Part shown: positions 49,290-63,225 of the stretch, piece after piece | Layout of the letters: each line of letters starts with the position of its first letter | Position numbering within the stretch: position 1 is the stretch's first letter | Assembly: GCF_000568815.1 (NCBI RefSeq) | Contig: NZ_CP007201.1 | Location: 2,799,654-2,863,653, forward strand | Source: Sulfurospirillum multivorans DSM 12446 | GTDB lineage: Bacteria > Campylobacterota > Campylobacteria > Campylobacterales > Sulfurospirillaceae | Reading direction: 5' to 3' | DNA length: 64,000 nucleotides | Notes under the pieces: generated by a model | What the model was told of the DNA's origin: nothing | Seen by the model: the letters and a program-made list of their open reading frames with translations, nothing else | Databases searched by the model: none | Position numbers and translations under genes: made by a program

Positions 49290-51980
49290 TTACTCCTCTA
49301 TGGGAATGTTAAACTCAAAAATGACACTGTTTTCCACATTTCTCGCCCAAATCGTTCCCTCATGCGCTTCAACGATTTTTTTGCAGATAAAAAGCCCTAA
49401 ACCACTGCCATTGATGTCATCGCTAATGCCTTTGATTCGGAAAAACTTTTCAAATACCATTTTGAGGTCTTCTTCACTGATGTGACTGTCTTCATTTAAA
49501 ACAAAGATGTTACACCTTGCACCCTCTTTTTGAAACCCTAAGGTGATGGCACTTCCGTGTTGCGAATATTTAATCGCATTTTCCAGAAGATTGACGACCA
49601 CGCGTTCTATCAAAACACAATCGGCTTTAAAAATACCCGACTCTTCTTCAATTTTGATACTGAAATTGCGCTCTTTTAAAATATCTTCAAACTCCCTCGC
49701 CGCTTGCGAGAAGATGTCTGCAATATCGCACCAATCTTTTTTAAGAACCACTTGATGGCTTTCAAACCGTGCAGAATCGAGCAGATTATTCATCAGACGT
49801 TCCATCTTTTTCGCGCTAAAAATAACTTGGGAGATGATAACGCGTTTTTTCTCATCCAGCCACGTCTCATCCGTCTTAAGCATCGAAACCATCCCCAAGA
49901 TGGAAGCAAGCGGTGTTCGTAAATCATGCGAGATGGAACCATACAGCGCATTTTTAAGCTCTTCACGTGCTAGAGTAATCGCATTTTTACTGTTTTTCTC
50001 AGAAAGTGAAATACGCTCAAAAGAGACCGCCATGACACTGGTGACAGAGTCTAAAAACATCTTAAACTCTGTGCTCATCTCATCTTGTTTGATTTTAAGC
50101 CCAAGTGCCCCATAAACGACCTCGCGGCTTTTAATCGGAATGTAGAGCATATCCGAAGCCAAAAAGGTGTCCGTGCCAGCCCCTGCTATTTTGCCATTGT
50201 CCAAACACCAATCAAGGACGGCTTTTTCACTTGAAGAGATAAAAATAGCCTCTAATTTTTCAAACATCGCATCGTATTTTTTACTCGAAAGTGGACTTTT
50301 AGGATCATAATGCGCATAGAGTTTTGGCATCTCATCCACATGCTTACGTAGGAAAAAGAAGGTCTCTTTGCCGAGCGATTCAGCGATTAAGGGCATGGCT
50401 ATTTTAATCACCTGCTTTATCTCAGAAACAGCCGTCACCCGACGGCTTAGTTTATACAGTCGTCTCACCCTCTTCTCTCGTTCGCGTATCGCTTCGCCAA
50501 TGAGTTTGAGCTTTTTCGCTTGCGATGAGATCAGATAAGCAACGATGAAAAAGATGAAAAAGCTCCACAGATGCGAGATGTCACTCACGACAAAGGTATA
50601 AACAGGAGGCACAAAAAAGTAGTTAAAAAGTCCGACACCAACAAAGGTAATCACCATCGAGGTTTTCATATCACCTCTGGAAGCAACGATCAGCACAGGA
50701 ATGAGAATAAGCAGTGCGACATTCAAAAGTTCTAAATGATTTCTAAAAACGATACACCCAAAGGTAATCACACCCAGCAAGCCCAGTCCAAAGAGAGAGT
50801 GCCACAAAGGAGCTTCCTCTTTTGTCTCTTCATCAAGGGTGTACGCTTCTAATTTTTGCTCTTGGGTTTTGTTAATGTACGAAATAATGCAAAATTCATT
50901 GCCCGCATTAAGGAGCTCATCGGCAATATCCATACGCCAAAACTTGCCTATAAAATTCTTTTTGCGTTTCGCCACAACGATGTGCGTTACAAACCGCGCC
51001 CTCGCATGTTTTAAAATCTCTTCGCCTACATCTTGCCCTGAGACGGTGTTGACCTCAGCGCCTAATTCCTCCGCTAAGCGGATATTTTTAGCCAGTTTTT
51101 CACGATTATTCGTTGAAAAATCATCAACATAAAGCGCGATCCACTCTGCATTCATCTGCGAAGAGAGCCGTTTGGCATAGCGGATCAAATTGGCGGAAAA
51201 TTCACTGCCATCGATGCACACCATCACCTTTTCAACCGCTTCCCAACGCTCCAGTCTGTTCTCTTTATACAGATCGTAAACGTCTTTGCTCACGCGCCCT
51301 GCGGCTTGTTTTAGCGCAATTTCTCTCAGAGCATTGATGTTGCCAAGCTTGAAAAAGTTCATGAGTGCTTTTTCAACGCTTTGGAGTTTGTAGATTTTCC
51401 CTTCTTTAAGCCGCTCAACCAATTTTTCAGGAGGGATGTCGATGATTTGGATTTTATCGACGCGTTCTAAAATGCTATCAGGAACGGTTTCAGTGACCTT
51501 CACACCCGTAATTTGCAATACCAAATCGTTAAGGCTCTCAAGGTGTTGGACATTCATCGTGCTGTAAACATCAATGCCATTGTCTAAGATCTCTAAAACA
51601 TCTTGATACCGTTTTTGATGCCTTGAAGTAGGAGCATTACTGTGGGCTAACTCATCAATGAGCACGACATCGGGTTTAGCTTCCAAAATGGCATCGATAT
51701 CGAGTTCATAAAGCATACTTCCACGGTACACGATCTTTTTAGGTGCAATGGAAGGGATACCTTGGGTTAAACGCTCTGTTTCAGCCCTGCCGTGCATCTC
51801 AACATAACCGATGCAAACGTGTGTACCACTTTTAAGCAATTCTTTGGCGTTGCGAAGCATGGTGTAGGTTTTACCCACACCTGCAAGGGCTCCAAAGAAG
51901 AGCGTTAGCTCACCCGTTTCGCGTTTGTTTTTGATCTCTTGAAGAACCAGATCACTCGTTTCTAAGACATCTTCATTCAT
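49290..51980 (-). CDS. kdpD: KdpD potassium-sensing histidine kinase
   Basis: The full-length 896-residue protein has the N-terminal KdpD domain with its own nucleotide loop (GALAGVGKTYTML), a universal-stress-protein domain (about 248-370), four membrane helices (about 400-500), a GAF-like region, HisKA (GSISHDLRTPLASILGM) and an ATPase domain (NLLENAIKYSQ, GSGLGLFICKK). The complete architecture suggests normal function with KdpE. It starts one base after the kdpC stop. Confidence 0.96.
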   Translation of the reverse strand: MNEDVLETSDLVLQEIKNKRETGELTLFFGALAGVGKTYTMLRNAKELLKSGTHVCIGYVEMHGRAETERLTQGIPSIAPKKIVYRGSMLYELDIDAILEAKPDVVLIDELAHSNAPTSRHQKRYQDVLEILDNGIDVYSTMNVQHLESLNDLVLQITGVKVTETVPDSILERVDKIQIIDIPPEKLVERLKEGKIYKLQSVEKALMNFFKLGNINALREIALKQAAGRVSKDVYDLYKENRLERWEAVEKVMVCIDGSEFSANLIRYAKRLSSQMNAEWIALYVDDFSTNNREKLAKNIRLAEELGAEVNTVSGQDVGEEILKHARARFVTHIVVAKRKKNFIGKFWRMDIADELLNAGNEFCIISYINKTQEQKLEAYTLDEETKEEAPLWHSLFGLGLLGVITFGCIVFRNHLELLNVALLILIPVLIVASRGDMKTSMVITFVGVGLFNYFFVPPVYTFVVSDISHLWSFFIFFIVAYLISSQAKKLKLIGEAIREREKRVRRLYKLSRRVTAVSEIKQVIKIAMPLIAESLGKETFFFLRKHVDEMPKLYAHYDPKSPLSSKKYDAMFEKLEAIFISSSEKAVLDWCLDNGKIAGAGTDTFLASDMLYIPIKSREVVYGALGLKIKQDEMSTEFKMFLDSVTSVMAVSFERISLSEKNSKNAITLAREELKNALYGSISHDLRTPLASILGMVSMLKTDETWLDEKKRVIISQVIFSAKKMERLMNNLLDSARFESHQVVLKKDWCDIADIFSQAAREFEDILKERNFSIKIEEESGIFKADCVLIERVVVNLLENAIKYSQHGSAITLGFQKEGARCNIFVLNEDSHISEEDLKMVFEKFFRIKGISDDINGSGLGLFICKKIVEAHEGTIWARNVENSVIFEFNIPIEE

Positions 51981-51981
51981 G

Positions 51982-52560
51982 TTAAGGATTTAAAACTCCA
52001 AAGTTTTTATCTAACGCACGATTTAAAAGAAGGACATTGACCCTCTCCTCGCCTATAAAACCCAAAAATTTTCGCTCAATATACTGATTCACAAGTTCTA
52101 GCATCTGAACTTCATCCACTTGGCGCTCTTTGGCGATAGCCTGAACTTGATAGAGTGCTGCTAATTTAGAGATATGCGGATCAAGTCCACTACCCGATGT
52201 CATGACCAAATCGCTTGGAATGACACCATCGCCAAATCTTACATGTAAAGCTTCTTTACTGGCATCTATTCTATCCAACAAAAGCTTGTTTGTCGGTGCT
52301 AAATTGCTCCCGCTTGAGGAGAGTGCATCGTAGCCATCTTCCCCTGCACTCGAGGGTCGAGCGATAAAATAGCCCGCTTTTGAAAAATTTTGCCCGATGT
52401 TTTGAGCGCCTATAACCGTTCCGTTAACTTCCAGTAAAAGTCCTGAACTCTGGGAGGGAAAAACCCACGCGCCGAGATTGGTAATCACAAGAGGATAGAC
52501 ACCTCCGAGTAAAAATGTCATGACTAAAAGTAATTTAATCGATTGAAGTAGTGTTTTCAT
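51982..52560 (-). CDS. kdpC: KdpC, potassium-transporting ATPase subunit C
   Basis: The 192-residue protein has one N-terminal membrane helix and the KdpC periplasmic domain (GQNFSKAGYFIARPSSAGED, SSGSNLAPTN, SGLDPHISKLAALYQ). ATG 52560 (MKTLLQSIK) follows AAAGGAAGC; an earlier in-frame ATG at 52605 lies inside kdpB. It stabilises the KdpFABC complex. A TTACATGTAA copy inside encodes LHVR. Confidence 0.95.
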   Translation of the reverse strand: MKTLLQSIKLLLVMTFLLGGVYPLVITNLGAWVFPSQSSGLLLEVNGTVIGAQNIGQNFSKAGYFIARPSSAGEDGYDALSSSGSNLAPTNKLLLDRIDASKEALHVRFGDGVIPSDLVMTSGSGLDPHISKLAALYQVQAIAKERQVDEVQMLELVNQYIERKFLGFIGEERVNVLLLNRALDKNFGVLNP

Positions 52561-52570
52561 ACGCTTCCTT

Positions 52571-54607
52571 TTACAAAAGATGCAATGTTGCAAGCAACAT
52601 ATCAAGCAGTTTTATACCCGCAAACGGCACGATAATACCGCCAAGTCCATAGATGACCAAGTTTTTTCCTAGCACCACATCTGCACTCAAAGCTTTATAC
52701 CCAACGCCAGAAATGGCCAGAGGAATCAGTGCGATGATGATCAATGCGTTAAAAATAACCGCCGATAAAATGGCACTCTCGGGCGATGAAAGGTGCATGA
52801 TGTTGAGCACTTCCATCTGAGGAAACGCCACAACAAAGAGTGCAGGAATGATCGCAAAGTATTTGGCAATGTCATTGGCTAAACTAAAGGTTGTCAGCGC
52901 ACCTCTCGTCATCAAAAGCTCTTTACCCGTCTCAACCACTTCAATGAGTTTGGTAGGAGAACTGTCCATATCCACCATATTAGCGGCTTCTTTCGCCGCT
53001 TGGGTTCCGCTATTCATTGCAAGACCCACATCGGCTTGTGCAAGGGCAGGGGCATCGTTGGTGCCATCCCCCGTCATCGCAACAGTAAAGCCCTCTTTTT
53101 GGTAGTTGCGAATAAGCGCTATTTTGGTATCAGGTGTTGCTTCGGCGACAAAATCATCCACGCCTGCTTCTGCGGCAATAGCAGCAGCCGTGATAGGATT
53201 GTCACCCGTAATCATCACCGTTTTAATACCCATACCTCTAAACTCAGCAAATTTCTCTTTGATGGAAGGCTTGATGATGTCTTTGAGATGAATCACGCCC
53301 AACACTTTACTGCCCTCGCATACAACCAAAGGCGTGCCACCTTTTTTACCGATTTGCATACAAATATCGTGTGCCTCTTTGGGGAATTTTCCACCCGACG
53401 CGGTGACAAATTTTTCAATGGCATCCACCGCCCCTTTGCGATACTCCTTACCATCAAGATCAAGCCCACTCATTCTTGTATAGGCACTAAAAGGGATAAA
53501 CTGGGCACTTTGCAGATTGGCTGGCTCTTTTACGCCATAGGTATTTTGCGCAAACGTAACGGTACTTTTCCCCTCAGGTGTGTCATCGGAAAGTGATGTT
53601 AACAATGCAGCATACGCCAAGTTATCAAGTTCTTTGATGTCAAGAGGCGTAAAAACACTTGCCATACGGTTACCAAAGGTGATCGTGCCTGTTTTATCGA
53701 GCAATAACACATTAACATCACCCGCAGCTTCTATCGCTTTACCGCTCATTGCAAGCACATTCTTTTTGAGCAGTCTGTCCATCCCCGCAATACCGATGGC
53801 ACTTAAAAGCCCGCCAATCGTCGTAGGAATCAAACACACCAGAAGCGCAATCAGCGAGACAACGGAGATATCTGCATTTACATGTAAAGCCATCGGTTTG
53901 AGTGTCAACGTCACGACAAGAAAAATTGCAGTCAAGCCCATCAGCAAAATAGAGAGCGCAATTTCATTCGGACTTTTTTGCCTTTTAGCCCCTTCAATGA
54001 GGCTAATCATACGATCCAAAAAGGTCTCGCCCGGATTTTTCGTGATCTTAATCGTAATTTCATCACTTAAGACAAGCGTACCTCCCGTAACGGAGTTGCG
54101 ATCTCCTCCTGATTCACGAATGACGGGAGCTGACTCGCCTGTAATGGCACTCTCATCGATGCTTGCAATGCCTTTGATGACCTCACCGTCGCTTGGAATC
54201 ACCTCACCTGCAACCACTACGACGACATCGCCTACTCTAAGGCTCTCTGAGCTGACCTTTCTTAGGCTGCCATCTTCACTTAACTTATTGGCACTACTGC
54301 TTTTTTTACCGGAACGTAACGCACTCGCTTGGGCTTTTCCTCTGCCTTCGGCTAATGCTTCTGCAAAATTGGCAAAAAGGACTGTAAAAAAGAGCCAGAC
54401 AAAGACCCAAAATTCAAATCCAAAAAGAGGAATAGTGCCACGACTGCTCTCATAAAGCCATATAAAGCCGGTAATAAAGGTACCCAAATAGACCACAAAA
54501 ATGATCGGATTTTTAAGCTGCTCTCTCGGGGTTAATTTGCCAATACACCCTTTGAGTGCATCTTGGATAATCGCTTGGTTATAGCTAGAATTATTTTGTT
54601 TTTTCAT
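52571..54607 (-). CDS. kdpB: KdpB, potassium-transporting P-type ATPase catalytic subunit
   Basis: The 678-residue P-type ATPase has the phosphorylation motif [20 protein letters not shown], and [21 protein letters not shown] 54607 is preferred because AAGGA lies seven bases before it; an ATG two codons earlier (54613) has the same site almost touching it. It powers the KdpA channel. A TTTACATGTAAA copy at 53877-53888 lies in the gene. Confidence 0.96.
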
Positions 54608-54616
54608 ACTCATTCC

Positions 54617-56314
54617 TTAAAAAGAGATGCGTTCAAGCATCATCAAATGCTCAATCACAGGGCTAAGTGCCAGCGAAGGGAAAAACGTAAGCGCCCCTGT
54701 TAACACAATGGTTGCTACCAAAAGGGTGATAAAAAGCGCGCTTTGGGTATTGAGGGTACCTTTGCCAAAAGGAACGACTTTCTTTCGTGCCAAGCTTCCC
54801 GCAATGGCAAGCATGGGAATAATCACACCAAAACGTCCCACAAACATACAGATAGCCAGCGCATAGTTGTAATAAAGCGTATTGCCACTGAGTCCCGCAA
54901 AAGCACTGCCATTGTTCGCACTGGCTGAGCTAAAAGCATAAAGAACTTGAGAAAGACCATGCGGTCCAGGGTTGGAGATGGAGCTAGTGGCATCTGGGAT
55001 TAAAAGTGATAAACCCGTAAAAAGAAGGATGCACAGACCCGGAAGCAACACGGCTATGACAGTATAGGTCATCTCCTTGGCTTCAATCTTTTTGCCCATA
55101 TATTCAGGTGTACGACCTATCATCAAACCTGCGATAAAAACACTCAAAATGACATACGCCATCATGCCGTAAAACCCTGCTCCCACACCGCCAATGACAA
55201 TCTCACCGAGCATCATCTGCACCAAGTTGACCATACCTGCAAGCGGCGTAAGACTGTCGTGCATACCATTGACCGCACCACACGATGCCGCCGTTGTGGC
55301 TACCGAAAAAAGAGAGGTTGAAGCGATGCCAAAGCGCACCTCTTTGCCTTCCATCGCACTCTCACCTACAATACCCGAAATTTCAGGATTGCCAAATTTT
55401 TCTGAGACATAATGCGAGCCTAACATCAGCACAAAAAGAACGACCATCGCGATTAAGATGGAACGACCCTCACCGCTTTTTTGGCTCATTTTTCCATAGA
55501 CGAAAAGCAGTGAAATGGGCAAGAAGAGGATGGAAAAGACCTGCACAAAGTTAGAAAGTGGGGTCGGATTTTCAAAAGGATGCGCGGAGTTGGCATTGAA
55601 AAAACCTCCACCATTGGTTCCTAACATCTTAATCGCCTCTTGCGAAGCCACAGGACCCATCGGAATGCTCTGATTTGCCCCTTCGAGGCTCACGGCACTG
55701 ATATAAGGAGCAAAGTTTTGAATGACACCTTGAGAAATCAAAAAGAGCGCATACACCAAAGAAAGCGGAAGCAAAACATACAGCGTTATACGAACCATAT
55801 CTGCCCAGAAATTGCCGATGGACTCGCTCTCTTTATAAACGATACCTCGCATAAAAGCCACTGCTACGGCAATGCCTGTTGAAGCAGAGAGAAAGTTTTG
55901 CACACTGAGCACAAACATCTGAGAAAAATAACTCATCGTACTCTCACCACTGTAATTTTGCCAATTGGTATTGGTCACAAAACTCACCGCCGTATTGAAC
56001 GCTAGCTCAAAGGGAAGTGCGGGTAAACCTTGCGGATTGAGAGGCAAAAGATGTTGGCTCAAAAGTACGGCTAACACCAGCACAATTCCCGCACCGTTAA
56101 AGAGCATCAGTGCTAAAGCGTATTTTTTCCAATTCATTTCCAGTTGTGGGTTAATGCCACACAAACGATAAAGACTCTTTTCTACCGGTGAAAGAAGTGG
56201 TGTTAAAACGTTTTTCTCACCCACCAATACTTTGGTAAAAAACCCACTGTATGCTTTTGCTGCTCCTATGAGCAAGATCAAAAAGCTGATAAAAAGGGTT
56301 ATATCTGCAACCAT
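54617..56314 (-). CDS. kdpA: KdpA, potassium-binding and channel subunit
   Basis: The 565-residue membrane protein has the four selectivity-filter-like repeats of the KtrB/Trk superfamily (for example VSFVTNTNWQNYSGE, GTNGGGFFNANSAHPFENP, GAVNGMHDS and SANNGSAFAGL). First gene of kdpABCDE. No kdpF-like short frame with a ribosome binding site was seen before it. Confidence 0.96.
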   Translation of the reverse strand: MVADITLFISFLILLIGAAKAYSGFFTKVLVGEKNVLTPLLSPVEKSLYRLCGINPQLEMNWKKYALALMLFNGAGIVLVLAVLLSQHLLPLNPQGLPALPFELAFNTAVSFVTNTNWQNYSGESTMSYFSQMFVLSVQNFLSASTGIAVAVAFMRGIVYKESESIGNFWADMVRITLYVLLPLSLVYALFLISQGVIQNFAPYISAVSLEGANQSIPMGPVASQEAIKMLGTNGGGFFNANSAHPFENPTPLSNFVQVFSILFLPISLLFVYGKMSQKSGEGRSILIAMVVLFVLMLGSHYVSEKFGNPEISGIVGESAMEGKEVRFGIASTSLFSVATTAASCGAVNGMHDSLTPLAGMVNLVQMMLGEIVIGGVGAGFYGMMAYVILSVFIAGLMIGRTPEYMGKKIEAKEMTYTVIAVLLPGLCILLFTGLSLLIPDATSSISNPGPHGLSQVLYAFSSASANNGSAFAGLSGNTLYYNYALAICMFVGRFGVIIPMLAIAGSLARKKVVPFGKGTLNTQSALFITLLVATIVLTGALTFFPSLALSPVIEHLMMLERISF

Positions 56315-56450: not shown

Positions 56451-58250
56451 TTAGTACGGTGAAGAGAGGTAGCATTTATCCAAATCTTTTCCAATATAAA
56501 CCAAAAATGTTTCATGTCTTTGTTCACGTTGCTGTTCAACAAACTCATAGTGTCCACGCACATACTGTACAACATATTGAGAAAGTTCGTTTTCAAAACC
56601 AACGATGCCTTTAAGGCGATAAATATTCTGAGGGAGAGTATCCAAATAAATTTCAAACTGCTCTTTGTTAAGCGCTTTTGGAAGTGCAACTTTTATACTT
56701 GAGAGATGATCATGTGTATGCGTATACTTTACCTCATCCTCTTCGGCAATCAAAGAAGCAATTTGAGCCGTACTCGCATTTAAAGAGAGCCTTAACGCAT
56801 TAGGATGTATATCACATTGCACCGTTTGGATTACTTTAGCGCAACGGTTGTTTTCATACAAAAATTGCTCTACTTTTTCTATTTCTGTTGCACTCATAAG
56901 ATCTGTTTTATTGAGCAAGATAATATCAGCAGAACGGATTTGATCAATAAAAATACGATATTCCTTCGCTAAAAAAAGTGCATTTGTCCCATCGACAACG
57001 GTGACAATCGCTTCTAAATCTACCAAATCCTCTAATTCATGCAATTCACTTAGAAGATTAAAAGGATTTGCAACCCCTGTAGTTTCAAGTAAAATTGTAT
57101 CGGGAGTGGTTTTTTTCATAAGCGTATTAACGCCCATACGTAATTGCCCCGAAAGCGAGCAACAAACACACCCCTCATCAATTTCGACCAATGAATAATC
57201 ATAATCTACGAGCTTCCCATCTAAACCTGTTTTGCCTATCTCGTTTTGAATAATGCCGATAAAATGATTTTTTTCAGTCTCGTATTCGATATAATTTTGT
57301 AAAAAATTGGTTTTCCCAGAACCTAAAAACCCAGTGACAACGACTAAGGTTGGTTTTATCTTGCGTTGCGATATGGAGGGCTTAAGAAATGCCATGCTTT
57401 CATTTTGATCATACCATGGTGCTTTTTGTAAAAAACTATTTAAACTCATATGCGCAAGAATAACCTGTGCTTCTGCCTTCTCTACAATAGGCTTTATCAA
57501 CGCATCACTCACACCATCTCCATACCCTAAAGCTATGAAAAGCTTTGTTGCAGGAGAATCTAACATCTTTTCACATCTGCCTTGCGCATTATATGCCACA
57601 GTGTAATCACGTGCTTTAAAAAGTTGAAAATAAGAAGGTGCGTTACATGTAAGCCTTGTAATAGCGGTATTGAAGAAATTCATAAAAGGCAATACCAAAC
57701 GAAATGAAGGCAAATCTTTATCCAATCCACCCGCCTCGATAATACATTCATCCTTCTTCCAAGGAGAAAAAACACCCTCTTTAGCGTAAACTCTTTGGCG
57801 TAAACACGTCTCATAACAAAGGAACATTGTTTGTGATTCAATGTTTACATGTAAACGCAAACTTCCAATATAAAACTGCGTCGAAAGCTCCGAGTCTGAT
57901 GCAAATGAACGCACTTTGTCAATAAAATTTTCCTCTTGAGCTAAGAGTCCTTCCAAAACCGAAAACCGCTCTATTAGATTCTCATTAGGAGAGGGAAAAT
58001 AATAAAGCGCAAAAGTGCCAAATCCATCATAAATTTCTGAAAACACAACACCAAATATACCTTCAAATTGATCAAATTTAAGCGTCCAACACTCTTTTGG
58101 ATGCTGGCATACATACATTCCTTTATAGCCTGTCATCTTTTTTAACACGCTGTCATAAGAACCTTTAATCAAAATAGAACGCATAAAAGCTGTGTAATTC
58201 TCAGCCGTACCATCAAATGTTGCAGGATAAAGTGCTTGAATATTCATCAT
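56451..58250 (-). CDS. CobW/COG0523-type GTPase with an unrecognised N-terminal domain
   Basis: The 599-residue protein joins about 290 residues of unknown type to a complete COG0523 metallochaperone GTPase: Walker A GFLGSGKT at 307-314, the metal-binding GCVCCSL (Cys 361, 363, 364), LLETTGVANP, LLNKTDLM and a CobW C-terminal domain, with a His-rich THTHDH before it. COG0523 GTPases insert metals such as Zn or Co into client proteins. The N-terminal half contains several Cys (48, 54, 145, 149) and could be the client- or metal-binding part. Last gene of the operon that begins at 60868. Confidence 0.82.
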   Translation of the reverse strand: MMNIQALYPATFDGTAENYTAFMRSILIKGSYDSVLKKMTGYKGMYVCQHPKECWTLKFDQFEGIFGVVFSEIYDGFGTFALYYFPSPNENLIERFSVLEGLLAQEENFIDKVRSFASDSELSTQFYIGSLRLHVNIESQTMFLCYETCLRQRVYAKEGVFSPWKKDECIIEAGGLDKDLPSFRLVLPFMNFFNTAITRLTCNAPSYFQLFKARDYTVAYNAQGRCEKMLDSPATKLFIALGYGDGVSDALIKPIVEKAEAQVILAHMSLNSFLQKAPWYDQNESMAFLKPSISQRKIKPTLVVVTGFLGSGKTNFLQNYIEYETEKNHFIGIIQNEIGKTGLDGKLVDYDYSLVEIDEGCVCCSLSGQLRMGVNTLMKKTTPDTILLETTGVANPFNLLSELHELEDLVDLEAIVTVVDGTNALFLAKEYRIFIDQIRSADIILLNKTDLMSATEIEKVEQFLYENNRCAKVIQTVQCDIHPNALRLSLNASTAQIASLIAEEDEVKYTHTHDHLSSIKVALPKALNKEQFEIYLDTLPQNIYRLKGIVGFENELSQYVVQYVRGHYEFVEQQREQRHETFLVYIGKDLDKCYLSSPY

Positions 58251-58263
58251 GAACCCTTTTTTA

Positions 58264-58289
58264 AAAGCCGAAGGTTTCCCATCGGCTTT
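58264..58289 (-). terminator. Hairpin between MBL-fold and CobW genes
   Basis: AAAGCCGA pairs with TCGGCTTT, and on the minus strand the second arm runs into TTTTAAAAAAGG. It may partly end transcription after the MBL-fold gene and thus lower expression of the CobW-type gene, which starts 14 bases later. Confidence 0.55.
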
Positions 58290-58300
58290 AGATAGACATA

Positions 58301-59467
58301 CTAACCAAACACCATTGTGTCGCCATTACCCAGATACACCTTACTTTTAGAGCGATGCTGCGCTGTTCCTTGAACGACGGGATAACCTGCCGCTACAAAT
58401 TTTCGAGCCGTCAACAACCCCGTACAATGGTTACAGCCAATGGCTTTAAAATCCCATTTTGCAAGCCCAATAACCAAGTCATCATACTTTGGATCCCAAT
58501 CATCAAAAGGCGAAATGTGCAAACCTCCGTATATACCGTACATTTGGTCATTATCGTACTTTAACTCTTTTTTAGCCATTGAGATAAACTGGATAATCCC
58601 TTGATGACAACACCCAGAAATGCTCACCAACCCTTTACCTTGAACATTGGCAAAGATAGATTGCTCACCAAAAACTCTATTGATAATAGGCACATCAAAC
58701 ACAATCGCACATAATCCTGGTTCAATATCATTGATACCTGTTTTATGCACCATTAATTCACCTTTGTGTCCAGAGTCTTTGATATACTGAAATCCTTCTG
58801 GGTAAAATCCCTCAGGAACGATAATCTTAATATTAGGCGCATACTTCATCGTAACAGGCAATCCCCAAAAATGGTCCCAATGCTCATGCGAAATAATCAA
58901 CGCCTCAATTTCTCCATTGGCGAGCATCTTATCAATGCCCTCTCTCTTAAACGATTCATCCATCCACGCATACGACCATCCCGTATCAAGAAGGTATTTC
59001 TTTTTGACGCCATCAAGTCGCTCTATCTCAATCAAGGCAGCAAAGCCTCCTGCATTTTGAGGATTAACACTGTTTTCTTCAGCAATTTTCCATGCTTCTT
59101 CCAGCTTATTGGGCAAAAGATGTTTAATTTTAGCTATCCCTTTTTCGTAACTCCCTTTGGCAAGGCCTGTACCATCGCCAAAAGGTGGCCAGTTAAAAAG
59201 GTATTGATTGACAAGCAATCCACCCGCTCCTTTAATATCGCCCATCAAGGTGGCATTGTCAAACCAACTTGTCTCCGAAATATTGGTAATTTTGATACTT
59301 TTACACGCACCAAAATCTTTCATTTTTCGCACCATTTGAGGCAAGAAAAATTCACGCATTGGCGAATAGGAAAAAATGCCCATTGTTGCAAATGTCCCTA
59401 ATCCAAGCCCTGTTAAAGCGCCTTTGAGAAAATCTCGCCTTTTTGTATCTTCATTTTGTACTGACAT
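58301..59467 (-). CDS. Tat-exported metallo-beta-lactamase-fold hydrolase (COG1237-like)
   Basis: The 388-residue protein starts with a twin-arginine signal (KRRDFLKGALTGLGLGTFA). The metal site HEHWDH is at 194-199, with further ligands H288 (SISGCCHQGII), H317 (YGGLHISP) and H347 (GCNHCTG). The last three motifs are characteristic of COG1237 hydrolases, a group with few known substrates. Middle gene of the operon, 15 bases after the membrane protein. It probably binds Zn or Fe in the cytoplasm before export, which fits the CobW-type neighbour. Confidence 0.83.
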   Translation of the reverse strand: MSVQNEDTKRRDFLKGALTGLGLGTFATMGIFSYSPMREFFLPQMVRKMKDFGACKSIKITNISETSWFDNATLMGDIKGAGGLLVNQYLFNWPPFGDGTGLAKGSYEKGIAKIKHLLPNKLEEAWKIAEENSVNPQNAGGFAALIEIERLDGVKKKYLLDTGWSYAWMDESFKREGIDKMLANGEIEALIISHEHWDHFWGLPVTMKYAPNIKIIVPEGFYPEGFQYIKDSGHKGELMVHKTGINDIEPGLCAIVFDVPIINRVFGEQSIFANVQGKGLVSISGCCHQGIIQFISMAKKELKYDNDQMYGIYGGLHISPFDDWDPKYDDLVIGLAKWDFKAIGCNHCTGLLTARKFVAAGYPVVQGTAQHRSKSKVYLGNGDTMVFG

Positions 59468-59482
59468 CGTTTCCTCCTCTGG

Positions 59483-60868
59483 TTAAAAAATTGTTAATGC
59501 TTTGCCCATATAAGGCAAAAGATAAATGATGGCAAAGTAAACGGCTACACCACCAACGATTCCACCGACAGCTCCTTTGTAAAAAGAGGCAGTTAGGACA
59601 CCATTTTCTTCCACTGAACGCACTTTGATCACTTCACCCACCTTTGCCAAACGCCATCCTGGCCAGCCATCCATAAACCAATAATTGATCAGCATGACAT
59701 TAATAAACCAGATGAGAGGTATCATGGGGAATTGTTGAGGATGTGAAAATCCTTTTTGTGTTCCTAAAAAAAGATGCGCTGTTTTATAATAAACATAGTA
59801 AAGCGCAATTGCGGCTAAAACTGTTGCAATCGTACGTAGAAAAATATTAACAACTTTGCTATAACCATTGAATCCATTTTTAAGATAAAAATGCATATAT
59901 AAAGTAGGAAGTAGCCAAAAGATTGCCATCTCGCCTACATGTAACCATCTCCAATCAGGTGCGGCATCTCTTCTTGTTCCCCTAATCGCCTCACCCCAAA
60001 TCAGCTCTTGTGCATAATACAGAAAGAAACTAAGCGCCACGGCGATGGCGATAATGCCAAAAAATGAGGCTGTACGGCGAATCCAAGGTGTTTGAATCAT
60101 TGAAAAAGGATAACGCTCCCAAATCGTTTCATGCATCCAAACAATGACGGTACAGCACATAACCCAAGCGATATTAAAGTTACCATGAACCGTTCCTGCA
60201 AAATCCTCCCACCACGGTGGCGTAACCGCCGCAAATTTTTGCCAAGGATCAAACAAAATACCCATATTTGAATGATAAACCACAAAATAAACGATAAAAC
60301 TAAGCAGAAAAGTGACTATAAAGATAGAAAAACCTTTGATAGGTTGTTTAAGATTTCCCCACGGTGCGCCCTCAGCCGCAACAACCCAAGCAGGACTTAA
60401 CCATGAAGCGATGGCAGCAAACATCAAAATAGCTTGTGCTGAATACTCCAAAGCATAAAATTCGACAAGCCCCTCTTTTGTCAATCGTTCAGGACTAAAA
60501 TAGGTAATCGCATACTCGCCTAAAAGAGTCTCAAAAAACAGTTTAAGCATAACCGCAAAGATAACCGCAGTCAGTGTCGTTAAAATAACACCTTTTAAGA
60601 CAGGATGTGTGTTATTGAGCCATGACCTACTAAAAGGCCAAAAGTCGAAAATATAGGCGATCCAAATCATAACAACCAATAACCATCGACACCACATGTA
60701 CCCGACAAATGGCGTATACATACGCATAATACCCCTTGGGTCTTGAAATATCCACCAACTTACATAAAACAACACCATAATAAAAAGGGTGTTGAGTAAA
60801 ATGGATAAAGGACTACTAAATCGTTTCACCAAACTTCTCTCTTCGAGATAAAGGGGTGTTTCCATCAT
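59483..60868 (-). CDS. Polytopic membrane protein of unknown family
   Basis: The 461-residue protein has roughly ten to eleven membrane helices and is rich in Trp, His and Tyr within and between them (TPPWWEDFAGTVHGNFN, WMHETIWERYPF, WRWLHVGEMAIFW, MDGWPGWR). I do not recognise the family. It is the first gene of a three-gene operon with a Tat-exported hydrolase and a CobW-type GTPase. The Trp/His pattern would suit haem, quinone or metal binding, which is speculative. A CTACATGTAA variant lies at 59936. Confidence 0.7.
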   Translation of the reverse strand: MMETPLYLEERSLVKRFSSPLSILLNTLFIMVLFYVSWWIFQDPRGIMRMYTPFVGYMWCRWLLVVMIWIAYIFDFWPFSRSWLNNTHPVLKGVILTTLTAVIFAVMLKLFFETLLGEYAITYFSPERLTKEGLVEFYALEYSAQAILMFAAIASWLSPAWVVAAEGAPWGNLKQPIKGFSIFIVTFLLSFIVYFVVYHSNMGILFDPWQKFAAVTPPWWEDFAGTVHGNFNIAWVMCCTVIVWMHETIWERYPFSMIQTPWIRRTASFFGIIAIAVALSFFLYYAQELIWGEAIRGTRRDAAPDWRWLHVGEMAIFWLLPTLYMHFYLKNGFNGYSKVVNIFLRTIATVLAAIALYYVYYKTAHLFLGTQKGFSHPQQFPMIPLIWFINVMLINYWFMDGWPGWRLAKVGEVIKVRSVEENGVLTASFYKGAVGGIVGGVAVYFAIIYLLPYMGKALTIF

Positions 60869-60904: not shown

Positions 60905-60979
60905 ATTATAGGAGGAGAGTGTCTGGGGATTGTCTCAGAAAAAAAAAGAGGGAAAGAAGAGTGTCTCGCAAATGTCTCA
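60905..60979 (-). promoter_or_regulatory. Promoter with two 21-bp direct-repeat sites 42 bp apart
   Basis: The plus strand has GAGTGTCT-N6-TGTCTCA at 60917-60937 and again at 60959-60979. Each copy contains two half-sites (on the minus strand GAGACA and AGACA) 11 bases apart, and the two copies are 42 bp apart, four helical turns. On the minus strand the nearer copy lies seven bases upstream of TATAAT (60910-60905), which is 37 bases before the start at 60868. The farther copy covers the kinase stop codon. This is the form of a tandem OmpR-type activator site. Confidence 0.75.
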
Positions 60980-62527
60980 TTTGGGTAAAGCAATGGTAAA
61001 AACGGCACCTCCTGCTTCATTGTGAACGCTTAATGTGCCTTTACAGTGCTCTTCAACGATGGTTTTAGACATACACAAACCTACACCCGTACCATCTTTA
61101 TTAAATTTGGTCGAAAAATACGGCTCAAAAATCTTCTCAAACAAAGCCTCATCTATGCCACCAGCATTATCTTTGATCTCCAAATAAAGCATACGGACAT
61201 CATCATATGTTCGAATCCAAATCGTCGGCTCACGAACCGCATTGTCTAAAAGGGCATCTTCGGCATTTTTGATAATATTTAAAATCACTTGCGCTAGTTC
61301 ATTGCTGTAGGTTTCAATTTTTTGCTTACATGTAAAGTCTGTGATGACCGTAATATTTTTAGTCACCAAAAGCGGTTTGACGATGTTAAGTGTTTTTTCC
61401 ACGACCACATCAAGGCTCACCCGTTCTTGTTGTTTGACCGCTTTAAAAAAGCTTCTAAAGTCATCTATCGTTTTGGAAAGATGCGAAACATAGGTTTCAA
61501 TACGCCCAATTTCTTCTTCAAATTCTTCTTTATTGACCTCTTCAAGCATCAATTTTGCCGATAAAAAACTAGTCGTTGCCGCAATCGCCGCCAAAGGTTG
61601 ACGCCACTGATGGGCTATCATGCTGAGCATCTCGCCCATTTGAATCAGGCGGGATTGGTATTGAAGCTGTTTATCTTTTTCACGCAATTTTTCCAGTTGT
61701 AACTGCACTTCCAAATGGAGCGTCTCGTTGAGTTGTTGAATTTTGCGTTCATTTTCCTTTTGATTAGTAACATCCAGCGATGTCCCTACCAATCGAAGCG
61801 GAAAACCATTATCATCATAAATGGCTTTGCGATGGGTATTGATAAACGCTTTTCGCCTATCTTTACGGTAAATCACATAATCAAGCTCCTCATTCATCCC
61901 ACTCATTAACGCTTTTTGGTTGACCTCTTTGACTCTTTGCGCATCCACTGCACTCAAATACCGATTGAATCGCTCTATTGTGGGGGTAAATTCGTGGGGC
62001 TCTTCTCCATAAATGAGGTACATCTCTTTCGACCACTTCATGCTTCGCTGCTCATCCATCACAATTTCCCAACTACCAAAATGGGCTATCTCCTCAGCAT
62101 TTTGCAGTAACGCTTCACTCTCTTTGAGCTTCTCTTGTGCCTCTATACGACTGGTAATATCCGTAATCGTCCACAACACCTCTTCATTGGAGGGAATCGA
62201 ATCCCCCGCAATCCTAAGCCAAAGGGTTGTTCCATCTTTGTGCTTAAAGGGATACTCAAGATTGAGGGCCTCATCTAACCTTACTTTGTTAAACGCAATC
62301 TCCGCAAAATTGACATACGTGGCATACGAAAGATGCATCACAAAAGCGGATTGCCCCACTAATTGGTCATAACTAAATCCAAAAATTTTGCAACACGCCT
62401 CATTGGCTTCAATGATAAGGCGGTCTTTATCCACAATAAAAATCCCCACGCCACTGTTGTTGAACAGTTGTTCAAAACGCTCTGCTTTTTGTTTGAGCGT
62501 TGAAGTTTGCTTTAGTGGTATTGCCAT
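60977..62527 (-). CDS. Cytoplasmic PAS-PAS sensor histidine kinase
   Basis: The 516-residue kinase has no membrane helix. Two PAS regions (about 15-125 and 140-258, the second ending in RLVGTSLDVTNQ) and a coiled coil precede HisKA with H306 (MIAHQWRQPLAAIAATTSF) and an ATPase domain (NIIKNAEDALLD, GTGVGLCMSKTIVEEH). It is partner of the response regulator encoded just upstream, overlapping it by 16 bases. It senses something inside the cell, such as redox state or a small molecule. Confidence 0.92.
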   Translation of the reverse strand: MAIPLKQTSTLKQKAERFEQLFNNSGVGIFIVDKDRLIIEANEACCKIFGFSYDQLVGQSAFVMHLSYATYVNFAEIAFNKVRLDEALNLEYPFKHKDGTTLWLRIAGDSIPSNEEVLWTITDITSRIEAQEKLKESEALLQNAEEIAHFGSWEIVMDEQRSMKWSKEMYLIYGEEPHEFTPTIERFNRYLSAVDAQRVKEVNQKALMSGMNEELDYVIYRKDRRKAFINTHRKAIYDDNGFPLRLVGTSLDVTNQKENERKIQQLNETLHLEVQLQLEKLREKDKQLQYQSRLIQMGEMLSMIAHQWRQPLAAIAATTSFLSAKLMLEEVNKEEFEEEIGRIETYVSHLSKTIDDFRSFFKAVKQQERVSLDVVVEKTLNIVKPLLVTKNITVITDFTCKQKIETYSNELAQVILNIIKNAEDALLDNAVREPTIWIRTYDDVRMLYLEIKDNAGGIDEALFEKIFEPYFSTKFNKDGTGVGLCMSKTIVEEHCKGTLSVHNEAGGAVFTIALPK

Positions 62528-63225
62528 TTTAATTTATATCCTTGTGCGTAAACGCTTTGAACAAGATCACACCCTACTTTATGGCGCAAACGCGAAAGTA
62601 AATTACGCACACGTTTGTTATTGCTAATATCATCATCAAATACAGTATTTTCAATCTCTTCACTGCAAAAAATACGCTGTTTTGATGACGTCAAAAGCTC
62701 AAACAACGCTATCTCATGTTTGCTGAGCTTGACAACGGATTGATGATGGCACAATGTTTGCGTTTTTGTATCCCAATAAAATCCATCGATTAAAGCGTTT
62801 TTATGAACAGCGTGTGCACTAAAGTGTGTTTGCATAATCTTTTGAAGAATTTCAATAATATCATTAAAAACAAATGGCTTTAAAATATACCCAGAGACAC
62901 CTTGTTGAATTGTTTTGAGAAAATACTCCGTATTATCATAAGCAGAAAAAATAACAATAGGAATTGTTGGATTAATTTTACGTATCTTTTGAATCATGAT
63001 AAGCCCATCCATCTTTGGCATATTAATGTCCGTAAAAATCAAATCAAAAGGCTCATGCTCAAAACGAAAAAAACCATCTAACCCATTCTCAACAACGACG
63101 ATTTCTTTAAAATAGAGTTCAAGCATTTTACAGGTTTGCATACGTACATCCATGTCATCTTCAGCATAGAGTATTTTTTTATTTTGACAAATCTCAATCA
63201 AGGATGAAAGTGCTTGTGCATCCAT
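62512..63225 (-). CDS. Response regulator with winged-helix output
   Basis: The 237-residue protein has a receiver domain with phospho-acceptor D66 (LIFTDINMPKMDGL) and a C-terminal winged-helix domain (LSKHEIALFELLTSSKQRIF, RVRNLLSRLRHKV). It probably binds the paired direct repeats upstream of the membrane/MBL/CobW operon. A TTTACATGTAAA copy at 63235-63246 lies nine bases before its ATG and runs into the ribosome binding site. Confidence 0.92.
   Translation of the reverse strand: MDAQALSSLIEICQNKKILYAEDDMDVRMQTCKMLELYFKEIVVVENGLDGFFRFEHEPFDLIFTDINMPKMDGLIMIQKIRKINPTIPIVIFSAYDNTEYFLKTIQQGVSGYILKPFVFNDIIEILQKIMQTHFSAHAVHKNALIDGFYWDTKTQTLCHHQSVVKLSKHEIALFELLTSSKQRIFCSEEIENTVFDDDISNNKRVRNLLSRLRHKVGCDLVQSVYAQGYKLKWQYH

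Follow-up and report, generated by a model that had tools for sequence, protein, structure and literature searches.

A cluster of three genes in the genome of Sulfurospirillum multivorans DSM 12446 raises the question of what a polytopic membrane protein, a hydrolase predicted to be exported and a GTPase fused to an unfamiliar domain could accomplish together. The cluster occupies positions 56451–60868 of a stretch of 64,000 nucleotides (referred to here as the window), which corresponds to 2,799,654–2,863,653 of the single chromosome of 3,175,729 bases. An initial annotation had presented the three genes as a tight and undescribed operon in which a GTPase of the COG0523 family might load metal into a metallo-beta-lactamase (MBL) hydrolase before its export by the twin-arginine translocation (Tat) pathway. 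The observation was right and the metallochaperone idea has been strengthened, but two regulatory genes had been missed and the GTPase is not universal. As judged from sequence comparison, the third core component, and the invariant partner of the other two, is the N-terminal domain of the fusion protein (hereafter N-domain), and the GTPase is optional. The reading that we favour, which has about an even chance of being correct, is that the operon encodes an enzyme system of the periplasm, inducible and equipped with a metallochaperone of its own; this chaperone would mature the Tat-exported hydrolase, which would act together with the membrane protein on the periplasmic side.

The three open reading frames (ORFs) were borne out at the proposed positions, all on the minus strand. 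The description as a tight operon holds for these three, but not for the extent of the unit, as the response-regulator and kinase genes at 60977–63225 belong to it in Campylobacterota. The genes are as follows.

62512–63225, minus strand: response-regulator gene, OmpR/PhoB-type, 237 amino acids (aa), with Response_reg and Trans_reg_C domains; it heads the Campylobacterota cassette
60977–62527, minus strand: histidine kinase gene with two PAS domains (PAS, HisKA, HATPase_c); its position is conserved
59483–60868, minus strand: gene for a polytopic membrane protein of 461 aa and about 11 helices; a new family with no fold relative in PDB
58301–59467, minus strand: gene for a COG1237-like MBL hydrolase of 388 aa, predicted to be Tat-exported
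56451–58250, minus strand: gene for a fusion of an adaptor domain and a COG0523 GTPase (CobW fusion), 599 aa

The gaps are 15 bp between the membrane protein and MBL genes and 50 bp between the MBL and CobW fusion genes, and the kinase and response-regulator genes share 16 bp. Among named relatives, a Sulfurospirillaceae metagenome-assembled genome (MAG) is the nearest, at 89% identity.

Conservation as a unit was assessed in a scan restricted to one genome per species, which gave 109 relatives, with 80 loci kept. The membrane protein and hydrolase genes are adjacent in 79 of the 80, with a median gap of 29 bp, the lone exception being a contig end; recurrence of the gene order at this level is far above chance. 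The CobW fusion gene comes next in 72 loci, and the eight misses comprise four contig ends and four loci of Rhodospira/Roseospira. Rare co-occurrence would have spoken against the initial annotation, and the three genes are instead found together almost always. Within Campylobacterota the membrane protein is present in 9 of 397 genomes and the hydrolase in the same 9, all of which keep the order response regulator, kinase, membrane protein, MBL and CobW fusion between flanks that differ. The cassette is also rare elsewhere, with about 11 near full-length matches among 297 genomes from the phylum to which a Pseudodesulfovibrio belongs and two among 399 Pseudomonadota. Its relatives are spread over about eight phyla overall: they occur in Campylobacterota, Thermodesulfobacteriota, Alpha- and Betaproteobacteria and Deferribacterota, and further ones in Bacteroidota, Spirochaetota, SAR324 and MAGs labelled as Myxococcota. 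None was found in viral contigs or plasmids. Gene-tree distances of the membrane protein, the MBL and the CobW fusion correlate at 0.82–0.87, a correlation that partly reflects shared ancestry. The membrane-protein tree mixes bacterial classes: Sutterellaceae neighbour gut Desulfovibrionaceae, Alphaproteobacteria are split over at least two places and a MAG labelled as Deferribacteres falls next to Campylobacterota, with the proviso that such labels are sometimes wrong. Because of this mixing, the cassette probably spreads as a unit, by transfer.

The evidence that bears most directly on metal delivery comes from the fusion protein, whose parts are the following.

57366–58250, minus strand: N-terminal adaptor-like domain, residues 1–295; encoded on its own in Rhodospira/Roseospira and type II operons
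56829–57344, minus strand: COG0523 G domain, residues 303–474 (Pfam cobW, E 1.3e-40)
57159–57170, minus strand: putative metal-binding motif CxCC, residues 361–364, within GCVCC; present in 66/66 fused relatives
56475–56702, minus strand: CobW_C domain, residues 517–592 (Pfam CobW_C, E 2.9e-11)

COG0523 proteins are described as metallochaperones with a CxCC site, in which the G domain usually comes first and the C terminus varies (PMC9164220). The window protein carries GFLGSGKT, GCVCC and NKTD, and among the 66 fused relatives the P-loop is found in 64, CxCC in all and NKxD in 53. It reaches neither of the NCBIfam equivalog cut-offs considered, scoring 121.8 of the 332.1 bits set for CobW (TIGR02475) and 81.4 of 600 for ZigA. 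The P-loop, GCxCC, NKxD and CobW_C are shared with the known G3E GTPases YjiA, ZigA/ZagA, CobW and Nha3, and the GTPase half is structurally most similar to YjiA; unlike in these proteins, a domain of 290 aa precedes the G domain and also exists alone. Pfam recognised nothing in residues 1–300, in agreement with the roughly 290 unfamiliar residues that had been reported. The N-domain was modelled with high confidence, and the 50 Foldseek matches listed for the whole model fell on the GTPase half, none on the N-domain. Since it has no invariant catalytic residue and a high-confidence model, the N-domain appears to behave like a recognition module.

Stand-alone copies of the N-domain occur in two settings. 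In type II operons (L108–L112), whose hydrolase is 43–50% and whose membrane protein is 25–28% identical to those of the window, a separate protein of about 330 aa corresponds to the N-terminal part of the fusion and to nothing beyond it (profile positions 16–291). In Rhodospira/Roseospira the fusion is absent, and a gene for the N-domain alone lies just upstream of the membrane protein gene. A Cys-X-Cys (CxC) tail, often rich in His, ends eight of these nine stand-alone proteins; examples are CACCSGDHDVTAPHGHHGHHHHHGHHSH, CGCEHC, CPCGCNHD and HFHHGDRYVCSCFHDH. For comparison, CxC lies within the last 60 residues of 10 of 718 neighbouring (background) ORFs, and before the P-loop in 2 of 66 fused proteins. 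With CxC tails on the stand-alone copies and CxCC in every fused GTPase, one domain appears to be joined at the same place to either of two putative metal modules. The domain announced as new is the third core component; it is the domain, and not the GTPase, that is the universal partner. The exchange of GTPase and CxC tail on the same domain lends the metallochaperone idea independent support, but its original form, tied to the GTPase, does not cover every system.

The hydrolase matches Pfam Lactamase_B, and its assignment to the COG1237-like group was confirmed by profile alignment to PDB entries 7dck, 2p4z and 3h3e, in which HxHxDH, GCCHQG, GGLH and HCTG fall on known COG1237 motifs. Two of its features matter here.

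59420–59440, minus strand: twin-arginine motif RRDFLKG, residues 10–16 (from sequence)
58871–58888, minus strand: metal-binding motif HEHWDH, residues 194–199; HxHxDH is kept in types I and II

The motif RRDFLKG fits the Tat motif RRxF[LVI]K, and 77 of 79 MBL relatives have an arginine pair among their first 25 residues. The twin-arginine signal that had been noted on the hydrolase is therefore upheld; Tat library models match it weakly (E 0.06–0.09; Pfam 0.09). Downstream of HEHWDH follow GCCHQG, GGLH and GCNHCTG, and type I and II hydrolases have ETSWF, HxHxDH, GCCH, GGLH, WDPK and NHCTG in common. The COG1237 hydrolases of known structure share HxHxDH, GC-x-H-x-G, GG-x-H and HC[TS]G; the present proteins differ from them in the N-terminal Tat signal, the ETSWF segment, GCCH in place of GC[SA]H and, in type I, an extra insert of about 40 residues. 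An in-frame TGA in one MBL gene (L017:1501–2646, genome G262) had suggested a selenoprotein, an idea that was rejected: the TGA sits at a conserved Trp codon (DDWDPKYD), so that the gene is either damaged or was misread in sequencing, within a cassette that is otherwise intact.

For the membrane protein, no match came from Pfam, NCBIfam or PDB sequences, and its AlphaFold model (mean predicted local distance difference test score 82, predicted template modelling score 0.86) has no Foldseek match at E<=0.001 in PDB, the fold database covered. The protein is polytopic, as described, but the model has about 11 helices where about ten had been counted. In Rhodospira the eleventh and last helix is encoded as a separate small ORF of about 39 aa (L092:11270–11407; L068); an apparent in-frame TGA in the Rhodospira membrane protein gene was considered and rejected, as it is the stop codon of that ORF, with the helix encoded independently after it. 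Because family means of positive charge (Lys plus Arg) on alternating loops are 16.7 and 8.9, the N terminus is inferred to lie inside, which would bring two conserved elements to the periplasmic side, the side to which the hydrolase would be exported.

59939–59941, minus strand: His310, invariant in the alignment of types I, II and III; the inferred topology places it where helix 8 meets the periplasm
59726–59764, minus strand: loop of residues 369–381, GTQKGFSHPQQFP; the most conserved loop of the family (mean conservation 0.98), periplasmic in the same topology

Type I proteins have invariant His199, His310, His365 and His376 together with many Trp residues, and only His310 is invariant across the three types. 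Type III membrane proteins (L113, L115, L116, L118, L119 and L121–L123) are about 430 aa long, rich in His and Trp and about 23% identical to the window protein; no MBL gene is adjacent to them, and the three that were scanned received no Pfam or NCBIfam assignment above cut-off. Their QPxxG and WPF motifs had suggested five two-helix internal repeats, which are not claimed here, as hhalign supports a single stretch of 22 residues (85%) and none in type I.

In Campylobacterota the unit carries its own two-component system. The response-regulator gene is upstream of the kinase gene in every locus whose contig reaches that far, and the kinase has no evident membrane segment in its sequence. The regulator consists of a receiver and a winged helix, and direct repeats about 11 bp apart lie upstream of the membrane protein gene, features by which it is assigned to the PhoB/OmpR type. 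The gap between the kinase and membrane protein genes contains two tandem GAGACA-N5-RAGACA direct repeats followed by TATAAT.

60962–60978, minus strand: distal putative operator pair GAGACATTTGCGAGACA, hexamers 11 bp apart (intergenic alignment)
60920–60936, minus strand: proximal putative operator pair GAGACAATCCCCAGACA, 42 bp from the distal pair (intergenic alignment)
60905–60910, minus strand: conserved −10 box TATAAT (alignment of 13 intergenic regions)

The exact GAGACA pair occurs at the same position in the window and in 7 of 12 named Campylobacterota loci, and the remaining 5 have degenerate AGACA repeats. Direct repeats spaced by 11 bp immediately before the −10 box are the usual layout for PhoB/OmpR-type activators, and it is found here together with the receiver and winged helix; this system differs in its GAGACA box, the arrangement in two pairs and an apparently single-operon regulon. 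The distal pair is the sole exact occurrence of its pattern in the 3.18-Mb genome, and sites with at most one mismatch are no commoner than those of a reversed-pattern control (17 against 19), which together suggest that the regulon is a single operon. Regulation differs outside Campylobacterota: a GntR-type regulator accompanies 41 of the 80 loci and a PAS-domain protein 36, the GntR-type regulator (with an FCD domain in the one scanned) mostly being accompanied by a PAS protein.

Taken together, these features could be arranged into the following mechanism. The 599-aa protein would be a chaperone in two parts, the N-domain recognising the client and the GTPase binding metal at CxCC and releasing it on GTP hydrolysis. 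The likely client would be the MBL hydrolase, folded with its metal or metals in the cytoplasm before Tat export. Once outside, the hydrolase might dock on the 11-helix membrane protein at its periplasmic face, in the area of the conserved His310 and His376, and the two could act on one substrate or pass a product inward. In Campylobacterota, the soluble PAS-PAS kinase and the response regulator would switch the operon on through the tandem GAGACA repeats. Several points weigh against this proposal. A CxC/His tail can serve for metal storage or buffering as well, and four of the eight CxC tails come from one family (Rhodospira/Roseospira), leaving about four or five independent cases. MBL enzymes often load zinc without a chaperone, and the membrane protein could equally be the client. 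A minority of systems lack the GTPase, so that the core function does not depend on loading driven by GTP. The membrane protein itself could be a transporter or an enzyme. A broader proposal, tentative and somewhat doubtful, is that the membrane protein founds a new family (types I, II and III) without a relative of known fold and performs, with the exported hydrolase and a metallochaperone of interchangeable modules, a periplasmic-face reaction of no known system; the adaptor would then represent a new way to build metallochaperones, from a client-recognition domain and either a GTPase or a Cys-X-Cys/His tail.

Other explanations give the same genes different roles. The membrane protein might take up a small organic acid that the exported hydrolase liberates in the periplasm from a lactone, ester or amide, with the CobW protein confined to supplying metal. 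Such carboxylate uptake would suit the GntR-type and PAS regulators of type I loci, as FCD domains typically sense small carboxylates, and it would suit type III loci, where neighbours named by eye from sequence include an acyl-CoA synthetase gene, adjacent in three of eight (L113, L122, L123), and methylmalonyl-CoA mutase and MeaB-like genes nearby (L115, L119). However, the link to type III comprises eight loci whose membrane proteins are very remote homologues (about 23% identity), the type I and II operons have no conserved catabolic enzyme, and the structure search recovered no transporter fold, so we regard this explanation as unlikely, if worth keeping in view. Acquisition of metal, or processing of a metallophore, is a less probable role still: the membrane protein would import a metal or its complex, the hydrolase would free the metal from its carrier and the CobW protein would receive it inside. 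Metal traffic fits a COG0523 GTPase and His-rich tails, and genes like those of ExbB-ExbD-TonB, an envelope motor driven by the proton motive force, continue the operon downstream in 20 of the 80 loci. These motor genes are nevertheless missing from most loci, including that of the window, and the TonB-like proteins, at about 175 aa, seem shorter than a typical TonB has to be to span the periplasm. The operon revealed no TonB-dependent receptor, although there was no systematic search for one; the regulators are GntR or PAS kinase, not Zur, Fur or NikR, and the membrane protein matches no metal transporter.

A membrane redox enzyme, in which the membrane protein binds haem or quinone through conserved His and Trp and exchanges electrons with the exported MBL, appears very improbable. 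The four invariant His and many Trp of type I agree with it, as do the soluble PAS kinase sensor and hosts that are mostly anaerobic respirers (from the relatives scan and general knowledge of the taxa). Against this, His310 alone is invariant through types I–III, neither Pfam nor PDB folds gave a match to a cytochrome or quinone protein, and the MBL has HxHxDH rather than the HxExDH of flavodiiron proteins.

The favoured mechanism, a dedicated G3E metallochaperone with its client, is of a known kind, and the whole system is undescribed in the sources searched: its novelty, as first proposed, stands against Pfam, NCBIfam, PDB sequences and PDB folds, and a literature search found no paper on the cassette genes. 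As in nitrile hydratase with Nha3, or in the HypB/UreG maturation systems, a G3E GTPase is encoded beside a presumed metalloenzyme client; here, unlike there, the predicted client would leave the cytoplasm and has a new membrane protein as its partner, and the adaptor can carry a Cys-X-Cys tail in place of the GTPase. For most COG0523 GTPases no client is known, which has been called an open problem (PMC9164220). For this one, the genome narrows the candidates to one membrane protein and one exported hydrolase, always encoded beside the N-domain, and client recognition becomes directly testable because the N-domain keeps its place when the GTPase is replaced by a Cys-X-Cys tail. The cassette would also provide an example of a protein loaded with metal ahead of Tat export, and its membrane protein family without known fold extends to gut Sutterella/Parasutterella and relatives of Bilophila.

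Some loci carry additional genes. A small protein with an N-terminal twin-arginine motif is encoded at 35 of the 80 loci; it was not found in the S. multivorans genome, a negative that is weak with so short a query. Proteins of this kind, which are conserved close to type I and II operons (L045:9698–9922, L047:9640–9897, L108:7796–8056 and others), have about 75–90 aa, an RRxFF-like motif and no obvious hydrophobic signal. At L043:14473–16033 and L045:14471–16028, the ExbB-ExbD genes and the gene for the short TonB-like protein (about 175 aa) directly follow the CobW fusion. In the window, a kdpABC-D-like block for potassium transport (565, 680, 207 and 896 aa) at 49290–56314 on the minus strand lies about 136 bp from the cassette, to which it is unrelated.

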